Below, one piece after another: positions 9,059 to 56,958 of a DNA stretch of 64,000 nt. How positions within the stretch are numbered: position 1 is the first letter of the stretch; each line of letters starts with the position of its first letter. Location: assembly GCA_025361705.1 (NCBI GenBank), contig JANYJW010000052.1:1-64000 (forward strand). Direction: 5' to 3'. The stretch is from Gemmatimonas sp. (lineage in GTDB: Bacteria; Gemmatimonadota; Gemmatimonadetes; Gemmatimonadales; Gemmatimonadaceae). The notes beneath the pieces were generated by a model. That model had not been told where the DNA came from. It was given only the letters and a program-made list of their open reading frames with translations, and did no database searches. Made by a program: the position numbers and the translations under genes.

Positions 9059-11098
9059 TCAGCGCGCCGGCACAATGCGAATCGCCTGCCCGCCCCCTGC
9101 CGCCATCGCAATGCGCAGGCGCGTCGCTGACGTCACCGGCTGCCTCGAGATGGTGATCGGCAGCGGGTTGTCGCGCCAATTCGCCCTGGGGCCATCGGCG
9201 TAGACTTCGGCCACGTAGCGGCGCCCCGGCGGCAGGAAGTCGAGCGGCACCTCCACCGTGCGCGCCTGCTCGTCCGTGATCGCCCCCACGAACCACGCGT
9301 CCTTCCCCTTGGCCTTGCGCGCCACCACCACGTCGTCGCCGATGCGCCCGTGCAACACGCGCGTGGTGTCCCAGTCGACGGCGACGTCGCGGATGAACTG
9401 GAATGCGGGCTGGTTGGCGTAGTTCTCGATGAGGTCGGCCGCCATCTGCACCGGCGAATAGAGCACCACGTACAGCGCCAGCTGCCGCGCCAGGGTCGAG
9501 CGCGGCCGCGCCTCCTCGGGCGTGCGCGCGCGGTTCGTTTCGCTGCGCGTGAGCAGCACGTTGAAGATGCCCGGCGTGTAGTCCATGGGGCCGGCCAGCA
9601 GGCGCGTGAAGAACAGGATGGTCTCGTGTTCCGGTGGATTGCCGCCTTCCCCGCCCCAGGCGTTGTACTCCTGCCCACGCGCCCCTTCGCGCGAGAGCAT
9701 GTTGGGCCACGTGCGCCGCTCGCCGGTATCCTTGATGGGCTCATGCATCACCACCGCAATTCCGTGTGTCGCCGCCGTCTCAATCACTCGGCGATGGTGG
9801 CGCACCATGTACTGCCCCTGATGATCGTGCCCGCCGGGATTGGCGGTGTCGCCCACGTAGCCTGTCTTGATGGCATGCACGCCCAGCCGTTCGTACAGGG
9901 CATAGGCAGAGTCGAGCTGCCGCTCGTAGTTGTCGACGAATGTCGCCGTCTCGTTGTGCACGATCAGCCCGACGCCCTTCTCCTTCGCGTAGCGCGCCAC
10001 GTCCGCGAGGTCATAGTCGGGATACGCCTGCGTGAACGAGAACGACCCGCCCGTCACCAGCCAGTTGCCGTCCCACCCGGTGTTCCATCCCTCCACCAGC
10101 GTGCCGCCCAGCCCGTTGGCAGCGGCAAAGTCGATGTACCGGCGGGCGTTCCCGGTGGTGGCGCCGTGTCGCGCGCCACTCGACCACGTCACCACGTTGA
10201 GGTGCATGCCCCACCAGATGCCGTCGTACTTCATCGGGCGAATCCACGGCGCGTCGGCCAGGCGGCTGGGCGGGTTGAGCTTGAGCGTCAACAGCGACGG
10301 CGCCAGCTGCTCCGGCGCGTCTGCCAGCTGCAGCGTACGCCACGGCGTCACAAACGGCGTGCGCCCCTTCACCGCGCTGCCGTCCTTCCAGCGCGTCAGG
10401 CTGGTGCGCAGCGTCCGGCTCTCGCTGCTCCCCGCGAGATACATGCCGGCGTAGTCCACGAGGTTGGCCTCGTGAATCACCACCTGCAGCCCGCCCGTGC
10501 CCTGGAGCGTCAGCGGCGTGTGCACCAGTGTCAGCTTGCTGATCGGCCCCGACGCGTACAGCATCTCCTGCCGATCATTCGTCGGCACGTTCGCCGGTAT
10601 CCACCACGCCTTCATGTCCTCGGCCATCGCGAACTCGGTGAGCTCGTCCATGATCTCGAAGTCCGCAAGATTCGGCTGCGCGGGCAGCTCGTAGCGCAAG
10701 CCAAGCCCGTCGTCGAAGACGCGCACCGCCACCCAGAACTCGCGCGCCGCGGGCGCCGTCTCCACCATCTTCACGCGCAGTTCGTTGTGCTGGTCGCGCA
10801 CCCGCGCCACCTCGCCCCACGGCAGCGCAAATGTCTCGTCGCCCGACGCGCGTGCGCTGTCGGCCACGCGCATGCCGGCACCAAGGGGCGGCGCGTTGCG
10901 GAAGGTGAATCCCAGGCGCGACGGTGTCACCACCGGGTGGCCGTCGCGCGCCACGGCCCACGTGAGGCGTCCGTCGCGGAGCGCAAGCGTGACGACGGTG
11001 CGTCCATCAGGGGAGGACACGGCGTGGCCCTGCGCGCCAAGCGCAGGGGCGAGACTGATGGCGAGCGCGGCAAGGGCCGCAAGGCGGAGCGAGGTCAC
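9059..11098 (-). CDS. GH97 alpha-glucoside hydrolase (SusB-like), secreted
   Basis: The true start is the GTG at 11098, which overlaps the alpha-amylase stop as GTGA and begins a signal peptide ending LGAQG. The product has 679 residues, the usual GH97 length. The N-terminal beta-sandwich includes SSPDGRTVVTLALRDGRL, and the catalytic barrel follows. Candidate catalytic glutamates occur in IVHNET, VMHEPIKD and GARGQEYNAW. They match the glutamate set of inverting GH97 enzymes such as Bacteroides SusB rather than the retaining branch. It probably releases glucose from maltooligosaccharides in the periplasm. The GTGA overlap implies translational coupling to the amylase. Confidence 0.9.
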   Translation of the reverse strand: MTSLRLAALAALAISLAPALGAQGHAVSSPDGRTVVTLALRDGRLTWAVARDGHPVVTPSRLGFTFRNAPPLGAGMRVADSARASGDETFALPWGEVARVRDQHNELRVKMVETAPAAREFWVAVRVFDDGLGLRYELPAQPNLADFEIMDELTEFAMAEDMKAWWIPANVPTNDRQEMLYASGPISKLTLVHTPLTLQGTGGLQVVIHEANLVDYAGMYLAGSSESRTLRTSLTRWKDGSAVKGRTPFVTPWRTLQLADAPEQLAPSLLTLKLNPPSRLADAPWIRPMKYDGIWWGMHLNVVTWSSGARHGATTGNARRYIDFAAANGLGGTLVEGWNTGWDGNWLVTGGSFSFTQAYPDYDLADVARYAKEKGVGLIVHNETATFVDNYERQLDSAYALYERLGVHAIKTGYVGDTANPGGHDHQGQYMVRHHRRVIETAATHGIAVVMHEPIKDTGERRTWPNMLSREGARGQEYNAWGGEGGNPPEHETILFFTRLLAGPMDYTPGIFNVLLTRSETNRARTPEEARPRSTLARQLALYVVLYSPVQMAADLIENYANQPAFQFIRDVAVDWDTTRVLHGRIGDDVVVARKAKGKDAWFVGAITDEQARTVEVPLDFLPPGRRYVAEVYADGPRANWRDNPLPITISRQPVTSATRLRIAMAAGGGQAIRIVPAR

Positions 11099-47709: not shown

Positions 47710-48810
47710 ATGCTCTCCCTCGGCATCGTTGGCCTCCCCAACGTCGGCAAGTCGTCGCTGTTCAACGCCATCACCTCGGCCAAGGCCGAGGCGGCCAACT
47801 ACCCGTTCTGCACCATCGACCCGAACATCGGCGTGGTGAGCGTGCCCGATCCGCGGCTCGACGCGCTTGCGGATGTGGTGAAGCCCATCCGCACACTCCC
47901 CGCCGCGGTGCAGTTCGTCGACATTGCCGGCCTCGTGCGCGGCGCGTCCAAGGGCGAGGGACGCGGCAACGCATTCTTGTCGAACATCCGCGAGACCGAC
48001 GCCATCGTGCACGTGGTGCGCTGCTTCGACGACCACGAGGTGACGCACGTCGACGGCGCCATTGACCCGGTGCGCGACCGCGAGACCATCGAGTTCGAAT
48101 TGGCGCTCGCCGATCTGGGCTCGGTGGAGAAGCGCCTCGACAAAGCCCGGCGTACTGCCAAGACGGGCGACAAGACGGCTGCCCTCGAGGCCGCCGCGCT
48201 CGAAAAGGCCATGACGCCGCTGTCCGAGGGCCGCGCGCTGTGGCACGTGGCGCTCACGCCCGAGGAACGCGCCTGGCTGCTGCCGCTGCAGCTGCTCACG
48301 CTCAAGCCCATCCTCTACGCCGCCAACGTCACCGACGCGGAGCTGAGCGGCGCCGAAGGCCCGCATGTCACCGCCCTGCGGGCCGCCATCGAGAAGGATC
48401 ACGAACCGGCGGAGGTCGTGACCTTTTCGGCCAAGATCGAGGCGGAGTTGTCGGAGCTGCCGGCCGAGGAGCGCGCCGAGTTCCTGTCGCACCTCGGCAT
48501 CGAATCGGCGGGCCTCGACCGCCTGATCCGCGGCGGCTATCACCTGCTCGGCCTGCAGACCTACTTCACGGCCGGCGAGAAGGAAGTGCGCGCGTGGACG
48601 ATCCACCGCGGCGACACGGCGCCGCAGGCAGCGGGCGTCATCCACTCGGACTTCGAACGCGGCTTCATCCGCGCCGAGACGGCGAGCTACGACGATTTCA
48701 TCGGGTGCGGCGGATGGAAGGGCGCCCGCGATGCCGGCGCGGTGCGCAGCGAGGGCAAGGACTACACCGTGAACGACGGTGACGTGCTGCTGTTCCGGTT
48801 CAACGTGTAG
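47710..48810 (+). CDS. ychF: Redox-regulated ATPase YchF (Obg-family)
   Basis: The 366-residue protein begins MLSLGIVGLPNVGKSSLFNAITSAKAEAANYPFCTIDPNIGVV, the diagnostic YchF G1 region. VQFVDIAGLVRGASKGEGRGNAFLSNIRETDAIVHVVRCF follows, and the C-terminal TGS domain (about 280-363) includes GLQTYFTAGEKEVRAWTIHRGDTAPQAAGVIHSDFERGFIRAE. YchF prefers ATP over GTP, binds ribosomes and is linked to stress responses. The gene is bracketed by inverted GGGAACAGAAC copies of the local repeat family. Confidence 0.97.
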   Translation: MLSLGIVGLPNVGKSSLFNAITSAKAEAANYPFCTIDPNIGVVSVPDPRLDALADVVKPIRTLPAAVQFVDIAGLVRGASKGEGRGNAFLSNIRETDAIVHVVRCFDDHEVTHVDGAIDPVRDRETIEFELALADLGSVEKRLDKARRTAKTGDKTAALEAAALEKAMTPLSEGRALWHVALTPEERAWLLPLQLLTLKPILYAANVTDAELSGAEGPHVTALRAAIEKDHEPAEVVTFSAKIEAELSELPAEERAEFLSHLGIESAGLDRLIRGGYHLLGLQTYFTAGEKEVRAWTIHRGDTAPQAAGVIHSDFERGFIRAETASYDDFIGCGGWKGARDAGAVRSEGKDYTVNDGDVLLFRFNV

Positions 48811-48950: not shown

Positions 48951-49793
48951 CTATGCCGCCGCCGAGTAGTCCTGCGACAGCACCTCCAGGTCGAGCACCA
49001 CCACCACGGTGTCCTCGCGCTGCGTGCGTGCCGTGCCGACAATGGCGCCGTCGGTGCTGCCAAAGTCGAGCGGCAGCGCCGCGAGCGTGTCGGGCTTCAG
49101 CTTGTCGATGCCCTCGACCTCGTCCACGACCAGCCCCACCGACCGGTCGCGCACCTTGCTGATGACGGCGATCTCGCGTGACGACGTCAGCATGAGGTTG
49201 CGCGCGCCCTCAAAGAGGCTCACCAGACGAGGCAAGCTCGTCGCGCGCATCTGCGCCACCGTGTCCACCGCCGCTGCATGGCGGCCGTGCCGCATGTGTT
49301 CGGCGACGGTCGCCCCGGTGGCGTGCACCTCGGCGTGCGGCTCCGCGAACTGCCGCAGATACCACTCGAGCTCGAGCGTCGGGGCCTTGTAGGCGTCGTA
49401 CCACTTGCCAAATGCGCAGCCGTGTGGGTCGAGCGTGCGCGTGAAGTCGCGCCGCTCGCGCACCGACGCCTCGAGGTCGTCCACCCAGTCGTGGTGGTCC
49501 TGTTCGCGCGCCCGCAGCAGGTCGACCACCGCCTGCTGCTCCGCATGCACCGACTGAAGCCCGAGGCGCGTGCGCATGTCGACGACGATGCCCACCTGGC
49601 CGCGCATGGATGCGATGCCGCGCACGCACGGCGGCGCGTGAGGCACGTGGTGCGCGGCAGGAGCGCGCACCATTTCGAGGATGGAACCACTGGGCAGCGC
49701 CAAGTGCTGATCGCCGACGCGCACGAGCACCCAGAGCGCGTCCGAGGCCAGCGCGTCCGTCAGCGCCGGATGAATTGCAAGGATGGAGTCCAT
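48951..49793 (-). CDS. CheW domain protein with inserted CZB zinc-binding domain
   Basis: From the ATG at 49793 the product has 280 residues. Residues about 18-85 are the first half of a CheW fold (WVLVRVGDQHLALPSGSILEMVRAP, VRGIASMRGQVGIVVDMRTRLGL). Residues about 88-200 are a CZB domain with candidate zinc ligands His100/101, Cys126 in GCAFGKWY, His153 and His157. Residues about 204-272 complete CheW (REIAVISKVRDRSVGLVVDEVEGIDKL). CZB domains bind zinc and can sense oxidants such as hypochlorite. No other chemotaxis gene is near. It follows the lasso exporter by 52 bases on the same strand. Confidence 0.85.
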   Translation of the reverse strand: MDSILAIHPALTDALASDALWVLVRVGDQHLALPSGSILEMVRAPAAHHVPHAPPCVRGIASMRGQVGIVVDMRTRLGLQSVHAEQQAVVDLLRAREQDHHDWVDDLEASVRERRDFTRTLDPHGCAFGKWYDAYKAPTLELEWYLRQFAEPHAEVHATGATVAEHMRHGRHAAAVDTVAQMRATSLPRLVSLFEGARNLMLTSSREIAVISKVRDRSVGLVVDEVEGIDKLKPDTLAALPLDFGSTDGAIVGTARTQREDTVVVVLDLEVLSQDYSAAA

Positions 49794-49845
49794 ATCCCAA
49801 GCATCGGCCGCAGATCGTACACGCTGAACACCGCGCCCCAACCGC

Positions 49846-51612
49846 CTAGCCCTCGCTGCTGTCCAGCGCGATCACATGGTCGGCCGCGTTGCGTACCGCA
49901 TCGCGGTGCGTGCAGAAGACCACCGTGCACGTCCCCGACAACCCGCGCACGGTGTCCAACACGCGGTGTTCCGTGTCGGCATCGAGGGCGCTCGTCGCCT
50001 CGTCAAGCACCAACAGGTCGGGCGCGCGCAACAGCGCCCGCGCGAGGGCGATGCGCTGCCGCTCACCGCCACTCAGCATCACACCGCGATCGCCCACCGC
50101 CGCGTCGAGTCCACGCGGCAGGCGCGCCACGAAATCGCACGCCGCCGCCTCGAGCGCAGTCCACAGGTCGCCGTCCGTCGCGCCTGGCCGCGCAAAGCAG
50201 AGGTTGTCGCGAATGGTGCCGTGCATGAGCATCGGATCCTGCGCGAGGTACCCCACCCGCTCGCGCCACCGCGCGCCATCAAGCGCCGCCAAGGGCCGCC
50301 CATCCACCAATACGGCCCCGCATTCCGGATGCAGCAGCCCCAGCAGCACGTCGGCCAGTGTGGTCTTCCCTGCCCCCGACGCCCCCACCACGACGGTGAA
50401 CGCGCCGGCGGCGAAGTGCGCAACGGCGCCCGCCAATGCAGGTTCGGCGGCGCCCGGATATCGCACGGTGACGTCGTGCAGCTCGATGGCTGGGGCGTGC
50501 GCCGCGTGCGCCGCGGGAGCCGCAGCCGACGTGCCGCGCGGGCCGTGACTGCCGTCACCCGCGCTTGGGTGGTTCAAATTGACCTGCGCATCGCGCGCTG
50601 CTTCGCACCGGGCCAGCAGCGCCGTCACCGAATCCCACGAGGCCAGCGCCTGCGACAGCGCGCTCGCCAGTGACTGCAATTCCGCGGCGCGCGGTACGAG
50701 TCGCGCGTACACAAGCAGGAGCAGCAGCAAGGTGGCCGGCGCCAGATGCCAGCGCGTGACGCCGGCCTCGACGAACAGGGCCAGCATCACCACGCCCAGC
50801 ACGGCCAGCGCGAAACTCACCCACGCACGGCGACGCGCGTACTGCTGCGTCAACGCCGACCACGTGCGCGTGTCGCTCTCCACCGCCGCCACCGCGCGCA
50901 CCTCGGCGCCATGCGCGTGGATCATCTTCATGCCGTTCAACAGTTCACCGATGCGCGCAAACAGCCCGCTGCTCGCACCCAGCAGCTGCTCGCCATCCGC
51001 GCGCCCCGGCGCGCGCAGTGCGCGCGCGGCCACCAGCAGCACGCCACCCGCGAGCACCACCGCCACCGTGAGGACGGGCGACACGACCACGGCCACCAGC
51101 GACGCCGCGAGCACCACCGCGGCCAGCGAGACCGCCTGCAGCAGCATCAACAGGGCACTGTGCACGTCGTCCACCTGTGGGCCGATGGCATGCAAGAGCG
51201 CCGCTGGACGTTCGCCGGCAAACCGAGCCCACGGCATCCGCACGACGGCCTCGAACAGCCGTTCGCGCAATCGGCCCACCACGGCGGCCTCGAGACGCGC
51301 GTCCCACCAGGCAAGCAGCATCTGCAGTCCGGCGCGGGCCGAAATCACCGCGACGACCAGCGCGAGCATGCCCGGCAGGTTCGGCGTGACGCCGAGCGCG
51401 CGCAGAACACCATCCAACGCCACCGCCATGCGGTCGGGCGCGCCGTCGCCCACCGAAACGCCGACCAGCCCGAGCACCGGAACCAGCAACAGCAATCCCG
51501 CGCCTTCGGAGAGCATCAGCGCCAGCGATGCGACGGCGACCACCCGCATGGGAGTGCGATGCTCGCGCCACAGAAACCGGGCAAACGCGCCGAGGCCCTT
51601 CAAGCGCGCCAT
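49846..51612 (-). CDS. Lasso peptide exporter, ABC transporter (protein D)
   Basis: The 588-residue protein fuses a membrane domain (about 25-330, four to six helices, SLALMLSEGAGLLLLVPVLGLV) to an ABC ATPase: Walker A GASGAGKTT (410-418), signature LSGGERQ (513-519) and Walker B with DEAT (537-540). Such half-transporters export finished lasso peptides and give self-immunity. The ATG at 51612 overlaps the nucleotidyltransferase gene by 13 bases; the ribosome-binding site is weak, so translation may be coupled. Generic ABC multidrug exporters look similar, and the assignment rests on context. Confidence 0.88.
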   Translation of the reverse strand: MARLKGLGAFARFLWREHRTPMRVVAVASLALMLSEGAGLLLLVPVLGLVGVSVGDGAPDRMAVALDGVLRALGVTPNLPGMLALVVAVISARAGLQMLLAWWDARLEAAVVGRLRERLFEAVVRMPWARFAGERPAALLHAIGPQVDDVHSALLMLLQAVSLAAVVLAASLVAVVVSPVLTVAVVLAGGVLLVAARALRAPGRADGEQLLGASSGLFARIGELLNGMKMIHAHGAEVRAVAAVESDTRTWSALTQQYARRRAWVSFALAVLGVVMLALFVEAGVTRWHLAPATLLLLLLVYARLVPRAAELQSLASALSQALASWDSVTALLARCEAARDAQVNLNHPSAGDGSHGPRGTSAAAPAAHAAHAPAIELHDVTVRYPGAAEPALAGAVAHFAAGAFTVVVGASGAGKTTLADVLLGLLHPECGAVLVDGRPLAALDGARWRERVGYLAQDPMLMHGTIRDNLCFARPGATDGDLWTALEAAACDFVARLPRGLDAAVGDRGVMLSGGERQRIALARALLRAPDLLVLDEATSALDADTEHRVLDTVRGLSGTCTVVFCTHRDAVRNAADHVIALDSSEG

Positions 51613-52751
51613 CCCAACGCGCGTCCGATGACGCGCAGGGCGCGCACAGGGTATGCCACCGGCAGCAGCAGGTCGGGCAGCCGCGCCACATTGCGCTCCT
51701 GCGGCGTTGGCAACGTGACCGCCAGCACGAGGTATCGCGCCTGCGCCCAGCCTCGCGCAAGCCATTGCAGGTCGTAGCGTGGCGTCGACTCCGTGCCGAC
51801 ATCGGGCGCATCGGGCTGCTGCGTCAACCGTGCGCACACCGCGTGCGCGAGGCGCACCGCCCGTGCATCAGCGAGGGCGGCTTGCTGCAGCGCGCTCGGC
51901 ACCGTCTCGAGCGCCAGCAGCTCGCGCGCCACCAGCAGCGCATAGTGGGCCGCGCGACGCACCCGCCACGCGTCGGCGCGCTGGGCAAACGTATCCCATT
52001 CGAAACTCGGGCGGGTGACGGTGGCCACGAAGTCCACCACCCAAAGCAGCGACGTCCACGCGTGCTTCACGCCATGCAGGGCCAGCAGCACCGCGAGATC
52101 TTCGGGCGCAGGCACCAGCACGGTGCCACCGCCCAGGGCGCACGGGCGGGCGCGCGAGACAATGGTTGCCGGATCCTGCGGCCCGCCGTAGCGCGGCGCC
52201 TGGCAGCGCCAATGCAGCTCCACGGGCCAGTGGTCGCCGCGCACGAGTTGTGTGACGCCCTCCCATCGCGAATAGACATGCTCCTCTCGCGCTGAATACC
52301 CGTACGCCGACACGTAGCCCGCGGCGCGCAGCGCCGCGACCGCGCGGTCGCGATCGGCCTCCGCAATCAGCAGATCGAGATCGGTGAAGCGCCGCGCCCC
52401 CACATCGCCGTGCACATCCGCCGCCAGCGCCGGACCTTTGTAGGCGACCATGGGCACGTGCGCATCGCCGAGCACCTGACTGAGGGCCACGAGTTGTCGC
52501 GCGCCCGACAACGCGGCCACCGCCACGCTGCGTACCGCATCGGCGAGGACCGTGCGAACATCAGAGGGAACGTCCGCAGCCGGCAACGCGCGGGCCACCC
52601 ACCAGCCGACGTCGTGCGCCATGGCAAACCGCGCGACCGCCGCCCAGTCGCCCACGCGCGCAGCGGCGGCGTGTTGCACGCGCACCGCGTCCGCATCGCG
52701 CCGCAGGGCCGCACGCACGAAGTCCATGTCAGGTCGAAGCAAGGCCGTCAC
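51600..52751 (-). CDS. Lasso cluster nucleotidyltransferase family protein (N)
   Basis: The 383-residue protein belongs to the nucleotidyltransferase family found with lasso and other RiPP clusters. VPMVAYKGPALAADVHGDVGARRFTDLDLLI carries the DLDLL acidic motif of the fold. HWPVELHWRC and PAPEDLAVLLALHGVKHAW are further family marks. The initiator appears to be GTG at 52751. In Bacillus pseudomycoidin synthesis a related protein (PsmN) was reported to attach hexose units to a lasso peptide phosphorylated by the cluster kinase. A similar tailoring role is inferred here. It is 39 bases after the kinase gene. Confidence 0.85.
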   Translation of the reverse strand: MTALLRPDMDFVRAALRRDADAVRVQHAAAARVGDWAAVARFAMAHDVGWWVARALPAADVPSDVRTVLADAVRSVAVAALSGARQLVALSQVLGDAHVPMVAYKGPALAADVHGDVGARRFTDLDLLIAEADRDRAVAALRAAGYVSAYGYSAREEHVYSRWEGVTQLVRGDHWPVELHWRCQAPRYGGPQDPATIVSRARPCALGGGTVLVPAPEDLAVLLALHGVKHAWTSLLWVVDFVATVTRPSFEWDTFAQRADAWRVRRAAHYALLVARELLALETVPSALQQAALADARAVRLAHAVCARLTQQPDAPDVGTESTPRYDLQWLARGWAQARYLVLAVTLPTPQERNVARLPDLLLPVAYPVRALRVIGRALGWRA

Positions 52752-52790
52752 ACAGCAAAGATGTCGCCGAAACGCGCCGGGCGGTACAAC

Positions 52791-53768
52791 TCACCCGCCA
52801 GCCGGCGCGTCAGTCGGCTCGGCCACGGCGGCCCGCACGCACGCCACCAGGCCCCGCAACCGCGCCGGATCGGCATGGGGGACCAGCCGGCGCACACGCC
52901 GCCCGCGCAGCACGGCCTCGAGCGCGCGCAACTCCTGGCCCCGCATCCGGTCGTCCAGCAGGTAGTTGGCATACGTGTTTTCCAGCAGCGCCATGATCGC
53001 GTCGGCCGGCCGCAGTGACTCGACGTACGGCGCACGCGCGTCATCCGTCCGGTCCGCCAGCACAAACAGGTCGCCGAGGGGTGCCGGGTCCTGATGGAAC
53101 GGATGCTCGTTGCCGAGTGGCAGCGCCCGTTTGTCCCACGTCGGCGTGAGCTTGGGCAGCTGCCCGATGGTGCCAAAGAGCATGCGTTCGCTCTCGTCCC
53201 ATAACCGCAACAGACGGTACGACGGATACGCGGTCACCGCGCCCTCAACCACGCGCACCGCCACCACATCGTCCGCCAGCACCGGCACGCCCTCGCCGGC
53301 AAATGCGGCCGCCGTGGTCGACTTCCCCGCGCCACTCGGGCCCAACAGGGCCACCGCGCGCCCATCGATGAGCACCGCGCTCGCATGAAACGCCAGCACG
53401 GCGCGGAGCCGAAGCACAAAGCCGAGCAGCGGACCCAGCAGGTAGGTGGCGGCATCGTCGAGGCTCGACGGCGCGTGCCACCACCCGTGAATCGACGATG
53501 CCTCGCGATCGAGCACGAACTCCGTGCCATCGTCGTAGCGGAACCAGAAGCCGCGGGTCTCGTCGCGCCGCACCACCACCGACGGCGCGCCGGCGGCATC
53601 GGCCGGGCCGAGGTACATCGGCGGCGCCGCACTCCAGCCCGTGGTCTCCCGCGGCGGCCCCCCGAGCACGATGTCCACGTCCACGCGCGCACCCGCCGGT
53701 GCGCTGTCCAGCCCGTCGAGCGCGCGGTCGCAGCGGATCACCAGCCCGTACAGGGCGTACTCAGGCAC
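52791..53768 (-). CDS. HPr kinase-like lasso peptide kinase (K)
   Basis: The GTG at 53768 overlaps the cyclase stop by eight bases; the product has 325 residues. The C-terminal HPr-kinase-like fold shows FHASAVLI (126-133), Walker A GPSGAGKST (143-151) and LADDVVAV (164-171). NEHPFHQDPAPLGDLFVLADR occurs in the catalytic half. Homologues in paeninodin-type clusters phosphorylate the side chain of the C-terminal Ser of the lasso precursor. Both precursors here end in Thr, the likely acceptor. No HPr-type PTS gene is nearby, which argues against an ordinary HPr kinase. Confidence 0.88.
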   Translation of the reverse strand: MPEYALYGLVIRCDRALDGLDSAPAGARVDVDIVLGGPPRETTGWSAAPPMYLGPADAAGAPSVVVRRDETRGFWFRYDDGTEFVLDREASSIHGWWHAPSSLDDAATYLLGPLLGFVLRLRAVLAFHASAVLIDGRAVALLGPSGAGKSTTAAAFAGEGVPVLADDVVAVRVVEGAVTAYPSYRLLRLWDESERMLFGTIGQLPKLTPTWDKRALPLGNEHPFHQDPAPLGDLFVLADRTDDARAPYVESLRPADAIMALLENTYANYLLDDRMRGQELRALEAVLRGRRVRRLVPHADPARLRGLVACVRAAVAEPTDAPAGG

Positions 53769-55542
53769 GCCGCACCGCTTCGCGGGCCAGCCAGCGGTCG
53801 ACCTGCACCACGCGCCATGCGTCGACGACTTCGAACGGCGTCCCCGATCGCAGCACGTGGCGCACCGCGTCCACGTCCACCCACGGAGCAACGCGCGCGC
53901 TGATCGCCACGTCGGCACCGCCGCGGGCGCGCCACTGCGCCACGCGCCCTTCGATCAGCCCACCCAACGCCGTCTTGGGACGCGCCACCACGGCGTCCGG
54001 CAGTTCGCCGTGCGTCGCCGCGCGAAACAGACGCTTCTCCTGGCACCATGGCACCGGCGGAATGGCGAAGACAAAGCTCAGCACCCGCGCGTCCACCAAC
54101 GGAAAGGTGAACAGCACGGGCGCCAGCGTCGTAGACGGTGCGAGTGACTCGTACAGCGAGTCCCAGAGTGACGACGACAACAGGCGCACCGACCGCGGAC
54201 GCAGCGGATGGGTCGACGCCGGCCGAGGCGTCGGCGGCGCGACCCGACGCGCCGCGTCGCGCAGCCACGGCGTGCGATCGGCCTCGCCGCCCTGCCGCCA
54301 GCGTCGCACCCGGTCGCGCCACTCGAGGCCCACCCATGGACGGCGGCCGGTGTGTGCGGTGTACCGCATCCACGAGCCCACGACTTCGGTCAGCGGCTGC
54401 GAGCGCAGTTGCCCCAGCAGTGTCGGCGCCTGCAGCAGCGTATCGCCATCCTCGCCGTAGATGGCAATCGGTGCAAAGGCGGCCACGGCGCGCGAGCTCA
54501 CGCGTTCGGCCGCGATATCCGACGCGTCGAACGGCTGCGCCGTCAGGGCGGAGGCATCGTCGATATGCGCCATCGCAGGCGGCAGGTCGAGATCGATGAT
54601 CTGCTGTGGCAGCCCGAGCCGTTGGGCCACTGCCACCGACAACGTGTCGTCGTCGCTGGGCGCGAGGGTCGGATAGGTAAACGTGAACGCGTGCAAGGCC
54701 ACCGCGGGCGCGGCGCGGCGGGCCGCCAGGGCCAAGGTGGGCGAGTCCATGCCACCGCTCAGCAGGATCGATGCGCGGGGGGCCCGCAAGCGGTCACGCA
54801 CCGCGGCATCGAGCACCTCGCGAAAATGCGACACGTAATCCTCGTCGCGCCGATACCGGATGGGGCTGGGCACGGGAAACTCCCAGTGGCGCCGTACCAC
54901 AGGGGGCGCATCGCCGTCGCAGAGGAGCGTGTGCGCGGCGTCGAGGCGCCGCACGTCGCGAAACACGGTGCGCGACGGCTCGTCCACCCAGCCGAGTCGC
55001 AGGAGTTCCACCAGCGCGCGGTCGTGCAACTCGGCGGAGATGCCGGGCACACTGCGCACCACGTCGATGGTGCTGCCGACGACGATCACCGTGCCCACGC
55101 GACCCCAGAACAGCTGGCGGTTGCCGTGCGGATCACGGGCGCACACCAACCGACGCAATCGCCGGTCCCACACGATGCACGCATAGTCGCCCAGCAGATG
55201 CTCGGCCAGGCGATCATTCCAGCGGCGGTAGGCCAAGGCGACGAGTCGTGCGTCGGAGGCCGCGGCGAGCGCGTGGGGCGCATCGGGGGAGAGCGCCGCG
55301 CGCAACGCGTCGCGCGCATCGATGCGCAGCGTGCCGGCCACCAGCAAGTCGCCGTCGGCGAGCGGCAGGTCCTCGTCGTACGGCAACGGACGCGCGTCCG
55401 CGAGGTGTGCCAGCGCCACTTCGCCCGATGCGGCAATCGAAACGCGCCCCGGAATCGCAGGCAGCGATAGCCGGAGGCGCGTGGTCCACTCGGGAGCCAA
55501 GGGCGCGAGTGACAGATCGATCAGCGCGCCGAAAGCCAGCAT
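53761..55542 (-). CDS. Lasso peptide macrolactam cyclase, asparagine-synthetase-like (C)
   Basis: The 593-residue protein is of asparagine synthetase B type. The N-terminal glutaminase-like domain (about 1-200: LLGDYACIVWDRRLRRLVCARDPHGNRQLFW) starts MLAFG and so lacks the catalytic Cys at position 2. Ammonia release is therefore not expected, as in known lasso cyclases. The PP-loop ATP site is SGGMDS (262-267). It should adenylate the ring Asp side chain and close the isopeptide bond with the core N-terminus. It starts ten bases after the second precursor gene without a clear ribosome-binding site. Confidence 0.92.
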   Translation of the reverse strand: MLAFGALIDLSLAPLAPEWTTRLRLSLPAIPGRVSIAASGEVALAHLADARPLPYDEDLPLADGDLLVAGTLRIDARDALRAALSPDAPHALAAASDARLVALAYRRWNDRLAEHLLGDYACIVWDRRLRRLVCARDPHGNRQLFWGRVGTVIVVGSTIDVVRSVPGISAELHDRALVELLRLGWVDEPSRTVFRDVRRLDAAHTLLCDGDAPPVVRRHWEFPVPSPIRYRRDEDYVSHFREVLDAAVRDRLRAPRASILLSGGMDSPTLALAARRAAPAVALHAFTFTYPTLAPSDDDTLSVAVAQRLGLPQQIIDLDLPPAMAHIDDASALTAQPFDASDIAAERVSSRAVAAFAPIAIYGEDGDTLLQAPTLLGQLRSQPLTEVVGSWMRYTAHTGRRPWVGLEWRDRVRRWRQGGEADRTPWLRDAARRVAPPTPRPASTHPLRPRSVRLLSSSLWDSLYESLAPSTTLAPVLFTFPLVDARVLSFVFAIPPVPWCQEKRLFRAATHGELPDAVVARPKTALGGLIEGRVAQWRARGGADVAISARVAPWVDVDAVRHVLRSGTPFEVVDAWRVVQVDRWLAREAVRRA

Positions 55543-55552
55543 ATGCGTGTTG

Positions 55553-55738
55553 CTAGGTGCGCCGTGTTGGCCACGTCCCGCCGTCCGTCCGGCCCACGTT
55601 GTCCACCTTGGCCGTGACCTGCGCCACGGTGCCAAGCTGCGACAGGTACGGCGTCACCCAAGGGGCCTCGCCGCGTTTCACGCCGACCACCATCTGGCCG
55701 TGCGCCGACGAATCTTCGAATCCTGCGTCCTGCCGCAT
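55553..55738 (-). CDS. Lasso peptide precursor A2
   Basis: The 61-residue peptide has a leader containing Trp27-x2-Pro30-x-Leu32-x3-Gly36-x5-Thr42. This is the YxxPxLxxxGxxxxxT recognition pattern of lasso leaders, with Trp for Tyr. With Thr at leader position -2, the core is KVDNVGRTDGGTWPTRRT (18 residues; Lys44 to Thr61). Asp52 then sits at core position 9 for a nine-residue ring. AGGAG lies just before the ATG. It aligns without gaps to precursor A1 from residue 25 on, while residues 1-24 differ completely. Confidence 0.87.
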   Translation of the reverse strand: MRQDAGFEDSSAHGQMVVGVKRGEAPWVTPYLSQLGTVAQVTAKVDNVGRTDGGTWPTRRT

Positions 55739-55791
55739 GGCACTCCTCGCTGAATTTCCTCGAGTCGTCCGTAGGCGCGCACCGGGGACCC

Positions 55792-55977
55792 TTACGTCCT
55801 CTTTCTCGTCCCGATGCCACCATCACTGCGGCCAGCGTTGTCGACCCTGGCCGTCACAAGCGCGACCGATCCAATAAGGACAAGTCGGGGCCGCACCCAC
55901 GGCGCCAGGCCAGTCACACGGCCTCTGGGGCTCTCTTGCTCTGTTCGATCCGGACCGATATCTACATCGCGGGGCAT
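55792..55977 (-). CDS. Lasso peptide precursor A1
   Basis: The 61-residue peptide has the same leader pattern (Trp27, Pro30, Leu32, Gly36, Thr42). Its predicted core is RVDNAGRSDGGIGTRKRT (Arg44 to Thr61), with Asp52 at ring position 9. The core is strongly basic. GGAG precedes the ATG by five bases. A promoter at 56122-56150 lies upstream across a leader of about 140 bases. A1 and A2 are separated by 53 bases and look like a duplicated pair with diversified cores. Confidence 0.87.
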   Translation of the reverse strand: MPRDVDIGPDRTEQESPRGRVTGLAPWVRPRLVLIGSVALVTARVDNAGRSDGGIGTRKRT

Positions 55978-56225
55978 TGTTGCTCCATGCTCAGCGGACC
56001 AGTGTCTTCACTCGGACGAAGCGGCACGCCGCTCCATGTAACACTACCGCAATCGTTTGCCCCGGACAATCACCCGTCTTGGTGTGCACCGATATCGCGC
56101 ACGAGTGCTGTCACCGACTCAAAGTTATGCACTGTCACGGTATTGGTCAATAGGTCGCGTCACGCTCCATCATTCATAAAGCAGGCGGCAAGTCTGCTGC
56201 AGGACGCGAGCAAGCTGCCGTGGAT
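55978..56225 (-). promoter_or_regulatory. Lasso precursor promoter and 5' leader
   Basis: On the minus strand, TTGACC (56150-56145), a 17-base spacer and TAACTT (56127-56122) form a strong sigma-70-type promoter in the 248-base gap between the B2 stop and precursor A1. The expected start near 56115 gives a leader of about 140 bases. The leader contains GATATCGGTGCAC and a GCGGC-GT-GCCGC hairpin near 56020. This lets A1, A2 and the downstream genes be transcribed separately from B1-B2. Confidence 0.75.
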
Positions 56226-56678
56226 TCACGCTCCCCCGTCCGCACCGGTATCCGACCCGAAGATGGCAAGCGTAGTGTACCGATCGAGATCTGCGCTGTC
56301 ACCGGTGACCAGGATCCCCGCGCTCTCCACCCACGCATGCGCATCGAGCGGCCGCCCGTCGGGCGCAACGCCAAGCGACACACGCGCCCGCTGGCCCGCG
56401 CGCCGCAGCATCACCTCGGCCGTGAGCGCCTGTGGAAGGCAGTCACTGCCGGCGATTGAACGGGCCGCGCGGTCGACCGCGCGGCGGACGGCGCGCACCA
56501 CCGCCGCGTCGGGCGCCGCGGGATCAGCAGATGACCAGCGGTCAACGACCGAGCGGACGCTGGCGAACGGAAGTAGCCAGAGCAGGAGCCTGACCACCGC
56601 GAGGACCCCGGTCGCCTGCACGGCAAGTGTCCGTTCGCCGGGGGGAAGCCCGGCAAAGCTACGGAGTCGGGCCAGCAT
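56226..56678 (-). CDS. Lasso peptide leader protease, transglutaminase-like (B2)
   Basis: The 150-residue protein matches the lasso-type transglutaminase-like cysteine protease family. A hydrophobic N-terminal segment (LAVVRLLLWLLPF) is followed by the catalytic region with Cys80 in SDCLPQALTAEVMLRRAG and His114 in LDAHAWVE. YTTLAIF near the end is usual for the family. It removes the leader from the precursor, normally after a threonine at position -2. The ATG at 56678 overlaps the B1 gene by 20 bases, so the two are probably coupled. Confidence 0.92.
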   Translation of the reverse strand: MLARLRSFAGLPPGERTLAVQATGVLAVVRLLLWLLPFASVRSVVDRWSSADPAAPDAAVVRAVRRAVDRAARSIAGSDCLPQALTAEVMLRRAGQRARVSLGVAPDGRPLDAHAWVESAGILVTGDSADLDRYTTLAIFGSDTGADGGA

Positions 56679-56958
56679 CGCGCACCACGAGCCCGCGTGC
56701 CGTCAGGTCCTCGACGAACGCCAGCACCTCAGCCGCGCAGAGGTCGGCGGACACATCGTACTCTGCCGTCAGCGTCGTCACGATGTCTGACAGGCGGCGC
56801 GGGGTCTGCAGCAGCGCCCAAATGCGGGCGCCCACGGCGGAGACGCTGAAGTACATGCCTTCCTTCATGCCCAGGATGACGACGTCCCCAGTCAGATCGG
56901 CGGCGACCTGATCGTTGGAGACGGCGACGACGTCGTCGAGGGAGAGCGCGCGTGGCAT
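56659..56958 (-). CDS. Lasso leader-recognition protein, PqqD-like RRE (B1)
   Basis: The 99-residue protein has the PqqD/RRE fold signature: LTGDVVILGMKEGMYFSVSAVGARIWALLQTPRRLSDIVTTLTAEYDV and EVLAFVEDLTARGLV. The RRE binds the WxxPxL-type leader segment and presents it to the protease. A separate B1 gene next to B2 is the split arrangement found in many clusters. TATGCT (56973-56968) lies only nine bases before the ATG, so the transcript might be nearly leaderless, but the -35 is poor. It is divergent from the rpsF operon. Confidence 0.92.
   Translation of the reverse strand: MPRALSLDDVVAVSNDQVAADLTGDVVILGMKEGMYFSVSAVGARIWALLQTPRRLSDIVTTLTAEYDVSADLCAAEVLAFVEDLTARGLVVRDAGPTP

Follow-up and report, generated by a model that had tools for sequence, protein, structure and literature searches.

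A predicted lasso peptide cluster with two precursor genes, a kinase and a nucleotidyltransferase in a Gemmatimonas genome

The stretch of 64,000 nucleotides analysed here (the window; Gemmatimonas sp., assembly GCA_025361705.1, contig JANYJW010000052.1, positions 1 to 64,000) contains an eight-gene lasso peptide cluster on the minus strand at 49846-56958, with the gene order B1-B2-A1-A2-C-K-N-D. Together these genes probably make up a single pathway for two lasso peptides of class II (cysteine-free) whose tail end is modified. Judged by its sequence, the cluster is real and complete, and it is probably functional. An earlier note on this DNA had described eight minus-strand genes in this order and interval as a complete lasso peptide cluster equipped with an HprK-like kinase and a nucleotidyltransferase. 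The layout is borne out by the positions of the open reading frames (ORFs); B2 passes a curated lasso model, B1, C and D match the expected families, K is recognised by its residues and fold, and N by its Pfam family.

The cluster is of a known type, but the predicted peptides do not follow two sequence rules that usually hold for it, those for core residue 1 and for the C-terminal Ser. The departures from type are a charged residue 1, a terminal Thr and a fixed chromosomal site. More tentatively, the lineage located between rpsF and ychF may form its ring on the alpha-amine of Lys1 or Arg1 and carry a phosphorylated, sugar-capped terminal Thr, with 10-residue rings and an arginine-methyltransferase-like enzyme (none in the window) in other members; this combined reading is possible, with the odds somewhat against it.

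Core Lasso Biosynthesis Proteins

The B2 protein scored 86.7 bits against NF033537 (lasso_biosyn_B2), above the cut-off of 33, and 85.4 bits against PF13471; the Cys and His expected in the family are present, within SDCLPQ and HAWVE. PDB sequences gave no match to B2 up to an E-value of 1. B1 scored 64.2 bits against PF05402 (cut-off 23.4), and phmmer matched it to the PDB entries 9x90 (2.6e-12) and 5v1u, TbiB1 (8.6e-11). The C protein, composed of glutamine-amidotransferase and asparagine synthetase domains, matched PF00733 (87 bits, over the cut-off) and PF13537 (50.7 bits) and is 40-70% identical to its relatives in loci L002-L015. D matched PF00664 (42.9 bits) and PF00005 (96.6 bits). Besides C, no cyclase of ribosomally synthesized and post-translationally modified peptides (RiPPs) was found among the eight genes in Pfam and NCBIfam searches.

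A pattern-based motif check of the relatives missed B2 in 6 of 20 loci, C in 3 of 36 and K in 3 of 29. All six missed B2 proteins contain the Cys and His after all, the pattern being too strict behind HAW; the three missed C proteins carry SGGIDS or SGGKDS; and one missed K gene, in L044, is cut by the contig end. Eight loci (L038, L039, L043, L044, L052, L057, L060 and L061) contain B1 and C, with B2 not found within the fetched stretch. B2 is located on another contig in several of these genomes, and G205 (L038) is not among the genomes with a B2 match.

Precursors and Predicted Cores

Both precursor genes consist of exactly 61 codons before the stop, as the earlier note had it. The sequences share W(-17)xxP(-14)xL(-12)xxxG(-8)xxxxxT(-2) at identical spacing, with Trp in place of the Tyr of YxxPxL, and GAGGAG is present a few bases 5' of the ATG of A2. 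A search of all six reading frames of the window for [YW]xxPx[LVITAM]xxxGxxxxxT plus a downstream tail acid at core 7-9 gave two matches, A1 and A2, against a single one in 40 order-3 Markov versions of the window; the motif-bearing precursors are beyond chance. Published leader recognition positions are the same as W(-17), P(-14), L(-12) and T(-2) of the window (PMC10368454).

This spacing leads to 18-residue cores that start with Arg1 (A1) or Lys1 (A2) and end in Thr18; the leader-motif rule and the T(-2) rule converge on the cores RVDNAGRSDGGIGTRKRT (A1) and KVDNVGRTDGGTWPTRRT (A2). The sole acid at core 7-9 is Asp9 in both and is the predicted ring acceptor.

Relatives of A1 and A2 were found in the same cluster of same-genus genomes. 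Among 14 motif-plus-core sequences of equal length from seven loci of the genus, pN was below pS in 86 of 91 pairs (median pN 0.36, pS 0.64). For wider comparison, 35 and 80 loci were fetched from C and B2 matches, respectively (part of those found), giving with the window 116 Gemmatimonadota loci. Regex and profile searches showed the same kind of precursor in most of the 35 other C-centred loci. Candidates were then kept only if Y/W(-17) and T(-2) were exactly spaced and an acid was present at core 7-10; in the window-type group (L031-L065 and the window) 31 of the 36 loci pass this filter, with 47 precursors.

Residue 1 of these 47 cores is Lys in 13, Thr in 12, Ala in 7, Arg in 6 and Val, Ser or Asn in 3 each; Lys and Arg together account for 19. 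Lasso peptides with Leu1 and Trp1 also exist. Residues named as observed at core 1 are Gly, Cys, Ser, Ala and, since 2025, Asn (PMC12670498), and by that list Lys1 or Arg1 would be new. The excerpts available of a 2026 review (PMC13352647) contain nothing on a charged residue 1 or on N. If the assignment is true, lasso cyclases tolerate a charge on the residue that forms the ring and perhaps make 10-residue rings too; this would widen lasso engineering.

In 16 of 90 motif-filtered precursors the only acid at core 7-10 is at position 10, with exact leader spacing. These occur in L037, L038, L039, L040, L045, L047, L049, L050, L052, L055, L057, L058, L064 and L065; position-9 and position-10 cores are found within one cluster in L039 and in L038, where a position-10 precursor lies at 9400-9675. 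Position-10-only acids indicate either 10-residue rings or a shifted cut.

Kinase K and the Tail Hydroxyl

Matches of K to HprK_rel_A (TIGR04352, 31.9 bits) and Hpr_kinase_C (PF07475, 21.8 bits) are both sub-threshold. H127, K148, D165 and D166 do not vary across an alignment of 20 kinases that includes the window's, and His-Lys-Asp-Asp is the signature published for lasso kinases (PMC9266682, PMC10368454). The AlphaFold2 model of K has a mean predicted local distance difference test score (pLDDT) of 94.7. The best Foldseek match of this model was a phosphoenolpyruvate (PEP) carboxykinase, PEPCK (E-value 1.1e-7; template modelling score, TM, by query 0.46), and HprK/P 1ko7 was also matched (1.2e-6; TM 0.25). 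PEP carboxykinases and HPr kinase/phosphatase constitute one superfamily. With TM-scores of this size, the predicted structure points to the HprK/PEPCK superfamily, a likeness at superfamily level only.

A K tree of 69 rows was built by a quick method with Shimodaira-Hasegawa-like approximate likelihood-ratio (SH-aLRT) support only; sampling is sparse, with two Bacillota rows, Paenibacillus and Priestia. The window K belongs to a 30-row set (support 90) of 28 Gemmatimonadota and two metagenome-assembled genomes (MAGs) of other phyla. The earlier note had proposed a comparison with known paeninodin-type clusters; in this tree the window K was not grouped with the Paenibacillus and Priestia kinases, which pair together (99) apart from its clade.

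A1 and A2 end in Thr, not in the C-terminal Ser published as the target of lasso kinases (PMC9266682, PMC8498205). [KR][ST] falls among the final five residues of 46 of the 47 window-type precursors; the lone exception is one L052 precursor, which ends GSFSMT. Tails in the window's 30-row kinase set end in Thr in 22 loci, Ser in 7 and both in 1, and a 22-kinase Gemmatimonadota set (support 91) has Ser in all 17 loci with a precursor. If Thr is the residue modified in the window's clade, lasso kinases would include a clade acting mainly on Thr.

The tie between K and the tail hydroxyl was assessed in all 116 loci. K (above 55 bits) is present in 71, of which 50 have a precursor passing the filter and 21 have none; 45 lack K, 15 with a passing precursor and 30 with none. 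Ser or Thr is among the last three residues in 65 of 67 precursors of K-bearing loci and in 2 of 12 precursors of K-less loci away from contig edges; by locus the counts are 48/50 and 1/7 (Fisher p 5e-6). K-less loci at contig edges were kept apart (8 loci, 11 precursors, 3 with terminal Ser or Thr); their inclusion changes 1/7 to 3/15 loci. The only K-bearing loci without a terminal hydroxyl are L115 and L140, a pair on the K tree, and K of L140 may belong to another cluster, since two C genes are present there. At least six exchanges between Ser and Thr were counted on the K tree. The repeated exchange of Ser and Thr, with loss of the hydroxyl only in the L115/L140 pair, adds weight to the tie, and Thr18 is the putative target of K in the window.

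Nucleotidyltransferase N

N scored 164.9 bits against PF14907 (NTP_transf_5; cut-off 31.2), and K105-G-P, R120, D124-L-D126 and E178 are invariant in 18 sequences. Its structure model (pLDDT 91.7) is similar to nucleotidyltransferases and gave FKRP (8.5e-3; TM by query 0.26) and ANT(2'')-Ia (1.4e-2; 0.32) as the top Foldseek matches; no match reached 1e-3. FKRP transfers ribitol phosphate from CDP-ribitol, and this fold can therefore do more than nucleotidyl transfer. The range of the modelled fold would suit the hexose reported for PsmN, on which the hexose(s) of pseudomycoidin depend (PMC9266682). The FKRP and ANT(2'') matches were considered too weak for choosing a sugar donor for N.

Proposed Pathway and Alternative Readings

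The sequence shows the gene content, the families, the motifs, the fold class of K and the conserved spacing; from these we infer every chemical step, the order of the steps, the threading and any biological activity. B1 would bind the leader via W(-17), P(-14) and L(-12), and B2 would cleave one residue past T(-2). C would adenylate Asp9, and attack by the alpha-amine of Lys1 (A2) or Arg1 (A1) would give a 9-residue ring threaded by the tail. K and N would place a phosphate, and probably a sugar, on the tail end, and D would export the product.

A number of results weigh against this pathway or parts of it. Of the three proteins that the earlier note wanted placed in lasso families by HMM searches, B2 passes its lasso-specific model and the two others match theirs below the cut-off: B1 scored 72.4 bits against NF033536 (lasso_PqqD_Bac), below the cut-off of 80, and C 156.9 bits against NF033535, the sole lasso cyclase model listed, below its exception-type cut-off of 525. 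No precursor model in Pfam or NCBIfam matched A1 or A2, and Lys and Arg are outside the published list for core residue 1. K changes its state once on the C tree, and one independent pair can be formed; the link of K with the terminal hydroxyl is thus one evolutionary contrast, to which the Fisher p adds no independent support. Thr is not exclusive in the window's kinase clade, given the 7 of 30 loci ending in Ser. The pattern search found K without the His motif in L058 and without Asp-Asp in L063; the candidate precursors of both end in Thr nonetheless. The function of N in vivo is known from one system, in which a host glycosyltransferase may take part (PMC9266682).

An unlikely but serious alternative to phosphorylation of Thr18 is that K acts on a non-terminal residue, the terminal Thr being conserved for threading or export. 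BsfK, from a cluster with both K and N, phosphorylates Ser3, accepting Thr too, and not the C-terminal residue (PMC10368454). Other hydroxyls are available in the window, namely Ser8 and Thr14 in A1 and Thr8, Thr12 and Thr15 in A2. Against this, terminal [KR][ST] means that a hydroxyl is kept in nearly all window-type precursors. A target of the Ser3 type was rejected: in the same-genus cores, 14 in all, position 3 is occupied by Asp or Gly and never by Ser or Thr.

There is a smaller chance that the ring is not formed on the alpha-amine of residue 1, either because B2 cuts elsewhere or because ring closure uses a lysine side chain, which would make a different macrolactam. Lys and Arg are unusual at core 1, and the precursors with a sole acid at position 10 show that the distance between T(-2) and the acid can vary. 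On the other side, the -17/-14/-12 anchor and the -2 anchor agree, the varied position 1 of the 47 precursors is as expected if only the alpha-amine matters, and A1 begins with Arg1 and has no lysine ahead of residue 16.

A cyclised but unthreaded product, that is, a branched cyclic RiPP, is improbable. Threading cannot be shown from sequence; nevertheless, B1-B2-C is the known lasso-forming set, with no second RiPP cyclase beside it. Recent transfer of the cluster from Bacillota, suggested by gene functions that match those of the pseudomycoidin cluster, has almost no standing, since the GC content of the cluster is inside the window's own range, and the K tree with its separate Bacillota pair, the genus-wide shared site and the correlations with ychF distances rule against it.

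Comparison with Known Clusters

The pseudomycoidin cluster (psm) of Bacillus pseudomycoides likewise combines the lasso set with an HprK-like kinase and a nucleotidyltransferase-like gene (PMC9266682). Its target is the C-terminal Ser, whereas the window has a terminal Thr and two precursors. The lineage of the window K is apart from the two Bacillota kinases sampled, Paenibacillus and Priestia, PsmK not being among the rows; N agrees with the pseudomycoidin type by its PF14907 match, a comparison that does not include PsmN itself. Paeninodin-type systems (PadeK, ThcoK, and SyanK of Sphingobium) share the His-Lys-Asp-Asp kinase (PMC9266682) and the ABC exporter. PadeK and ThcoK act on the C-terminal Ser (PMC9266682), in contrast to the window with its terminal Thr, the presence of N and a core starting with Lys or Arg. 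The gene order of the paeninodin-family cluster of Priestia (L098), C-A-K-B1-B2-D, is not that of the window.

The bsf cluster of Bradymonas sediminis, a non-Bacillota Gram-negative, contains A, B1, B2, C and D together with K and N; it differs in having Ile(-2), Gly1, Asp8 and phospho-Ser3, compared with Thr(-2), Lys1 or Arg1, Asp9 and Asp3 in the window (PMC10368454). Like the window's cluster, it is reported to have ribosomal protein genes next to one end (PMC10368454), by coincidence or by a shared preference. B1-B2-C, K, N and an ABC transporter are found together on plasmid pHALXA01 of Halopiger xanaduensis (L092), which is archaeal and has another gene orientation; its candidate core has an acid at position 10 and ends in APT.

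Metanodin, from a soil metagenome (Steroidobacterales), similarly has a non-canonical core residue 1 assigned via T(-2) and ring size, and a 2025 paper introduced it as the first example with Asn1 (PMC12670498). The window has Lys1 and Arg1 instead; the word kinase is absent from the main text of PMC12670498.

Lasso kinases were published from Bacillota and Proteobacteria (PMC9266682, PMC8498205), and K with N from B. pseudomycoides and B. sediminis (PMC9266682, PMC10368454). The label of a Bacillota tailoring set, given to K and N in the earlier note, does not hold, since the pair is present in Bradymonas and in the archaeal Halopiger locus. The suggestion that the cluster extends the class is right only as far as no paper on such clusters in Gemmatimonadota was found, but K with N outside Bacillota had already been published. 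The former negative concerns the literature matches listed, which are open-licence papers only, and is weak evidence of absence. In the accessible part of an antiSMASH survey of Antarctic soil, Gemmatimonadota clusters were reported, with no lasso peptide named among them.

Distribution and Chromosomal Site

Scanning named genomes with the C alignment yielded 26 loci; 21 of these are titled Gemmatimonad-, in agreement with the host phylum supposed earlier; among the other five are MAGs of Singulisphaera, Sandaracinaceae, a gammaproteobacterial one and Rokuibacteriota. In the phylum scan, C matched in 239 of 395 genomes, ordinary asparagine synthetases necessarily being counted too, and the lasso B2 model matched in 119 of 395, all over the cut-off. 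The 116 loci contain C in 95, K in 67, N in 67 and both K and N in 62 (K and N counted above 150 bits). Lasso clusters with K and N are accordingly common in Gemmatimonadota and no curiosity of the window.

In the window, the cluster is flanked by ychF (47710-48810) on one side and rpsF (ORF listed from 57053) on the other. For the site count, 141 genomes with rpsF and 130 of 134 with ychF were used, four with only short or about 40%-identical ychF matches being excluded. Both markers are on one contig in 100 genomes of the window's family, with C between them in 15: 7/7 in the window's genus, 3/12 in genus g2 and 5/10 in genus g9 (8/22 in g2 and g9 together). In the other 85 genomes the markers are a median of 1348 bases apart (range 100-32043), with less than 3 kb between them in 60; for C this count used only 24 of the closest places, and some of the 100 genomes lie outside the set drawn for the C scan, so that C between the markers could be missed in these 85. 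C is located at most 3.2 kb from rpsF in all ten same-genus genomes of the C scan. Distances of cluster genes track ychF distances in 17 loci: the Spearman coefficient is 0.46 for C, 0.37 for K and 0.67 for N, values reached in no more than 2 of 999 permutations. The site distribution is most simply read as inheritance of the cluster and its loss in parts of g2 and g9; repeated insertion at the same place is possible too. If inheritance is true, a lasso pathway has been kept at one housekeeping site genus-wide, which gives a chance to ask what use the peptides are to the producer.

The same-genus locus L049 is 57-68% identical to the window in B2, K, N and D and 51% in B1, but only 37% in C, and its core differs. 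With C and core diverged and the other enzymes still close, a joint replacement of A and C would fit, and the cassette looks modular. From rpsF, the order in L049 is C-A-methyltransferase-B1-B2-K-N-D. C and the precursors of L050 resemble those of L049, and besides C only a partial methyltransferase gene was found in its fetched stretch.

A gene for a protein arginine N-methyltransferase-like protein of about 390 amino acids is present in 23 of the 116 loci, including L032 (5126-6295), L034 (9319-10503), L035 (4771-5934) and L038 (5460-6611); K exceeds 150 bits in 20 of these 23. The L032 protein matched PRMT6 in phmmer (8.7e-17). For L044, L046 and L050, three of the loci with this gene, the comparison covered only a short contig or stretch. 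The gene is absent from the window, L031 and L033, and no significant methyltransferase remnant was found in the B2-A1 gap or elsewhere in the window (best E-value 3.0).

Cluster Layout and Neighbouring Genes

Coordinates are given in Table 1. Overlaps were found between B1 and B2, C and K, and N and D; 10 bases separate the end of A2 from the start of C, and 39 the end of K from the start of N. The longest intergenic space of the cluster is that between B2 and A1 (248 bases). The most likely start of K is GTG at 53768 rather than the first in-frame start of the ORF at 53918; those of C and D are most likely ATG at 55542 and ATG at 51612. The GC content of the cluster genes is 0.67-0.72, compared with 0.64-0.73 across the window. 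Genome G000 (2.97 Mb, 71 contigs) gave a single C match. A promoter-like site at 56302-56274 (2 sites against 0.3 expected) was rejected as too weak for use.

Table 1. Features of the lasso peptide cluster, with positions in the window
Feature	Position	Strand	Evidence or remark
B1, PqqD-like leader-recognition protein (RiPP recognition element, RRE), 99 aa	56659..56958	-	PF05402, NF033536, phmmer against PDB
B2, transglutaminase-like leader peptidase, 150 aa	56226..56678	-	NF033537, PF13471; overlaps B1
B2-A1 gap, no called gene	55978..56225	-	Arginine-methyltransferase-like gene at this place in same-genus L032, L034, L035, L036
A1, precursor, 61 aa; predicted core RVDNAGRSDGGIGTRKRT, ring 1-9	55792..55977	-	Leader motif, homologues in relatives
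A2, precursor, 61 aa; predicted core KVDNVGRTDGGTWPTRRT, ring 1-9	55553..55738	-	Leader motif and spacing as in A1
C, asparagine-synthetase-like lasso cyclase, 593 aa	53761..55542	-	PF00733, PF13537, SGGMDS PP-loop
K, HprK-like kinase, 325 aa	52791..53768	-	Residues and predicted fold; GTG start over C stop
N, nucleotidyltransferase-fold protein (NTP_transf_5), 383 aa	51600..52751	-	PF14907, residues, predicted fold
D, ABC exporter, membrane and ATPase domains fused, 588 aa	49846..51612	-	PF00664, PF00005

Directly downstream of D, between D and ychF, a minus-strand gene at 48951-49841 encodes CheW and chemoreceptor zinc-binding (CZB) domains in one protein. Among loci L031-L091, a homologue of this protein is present in L036 and its duplicate L072 only.

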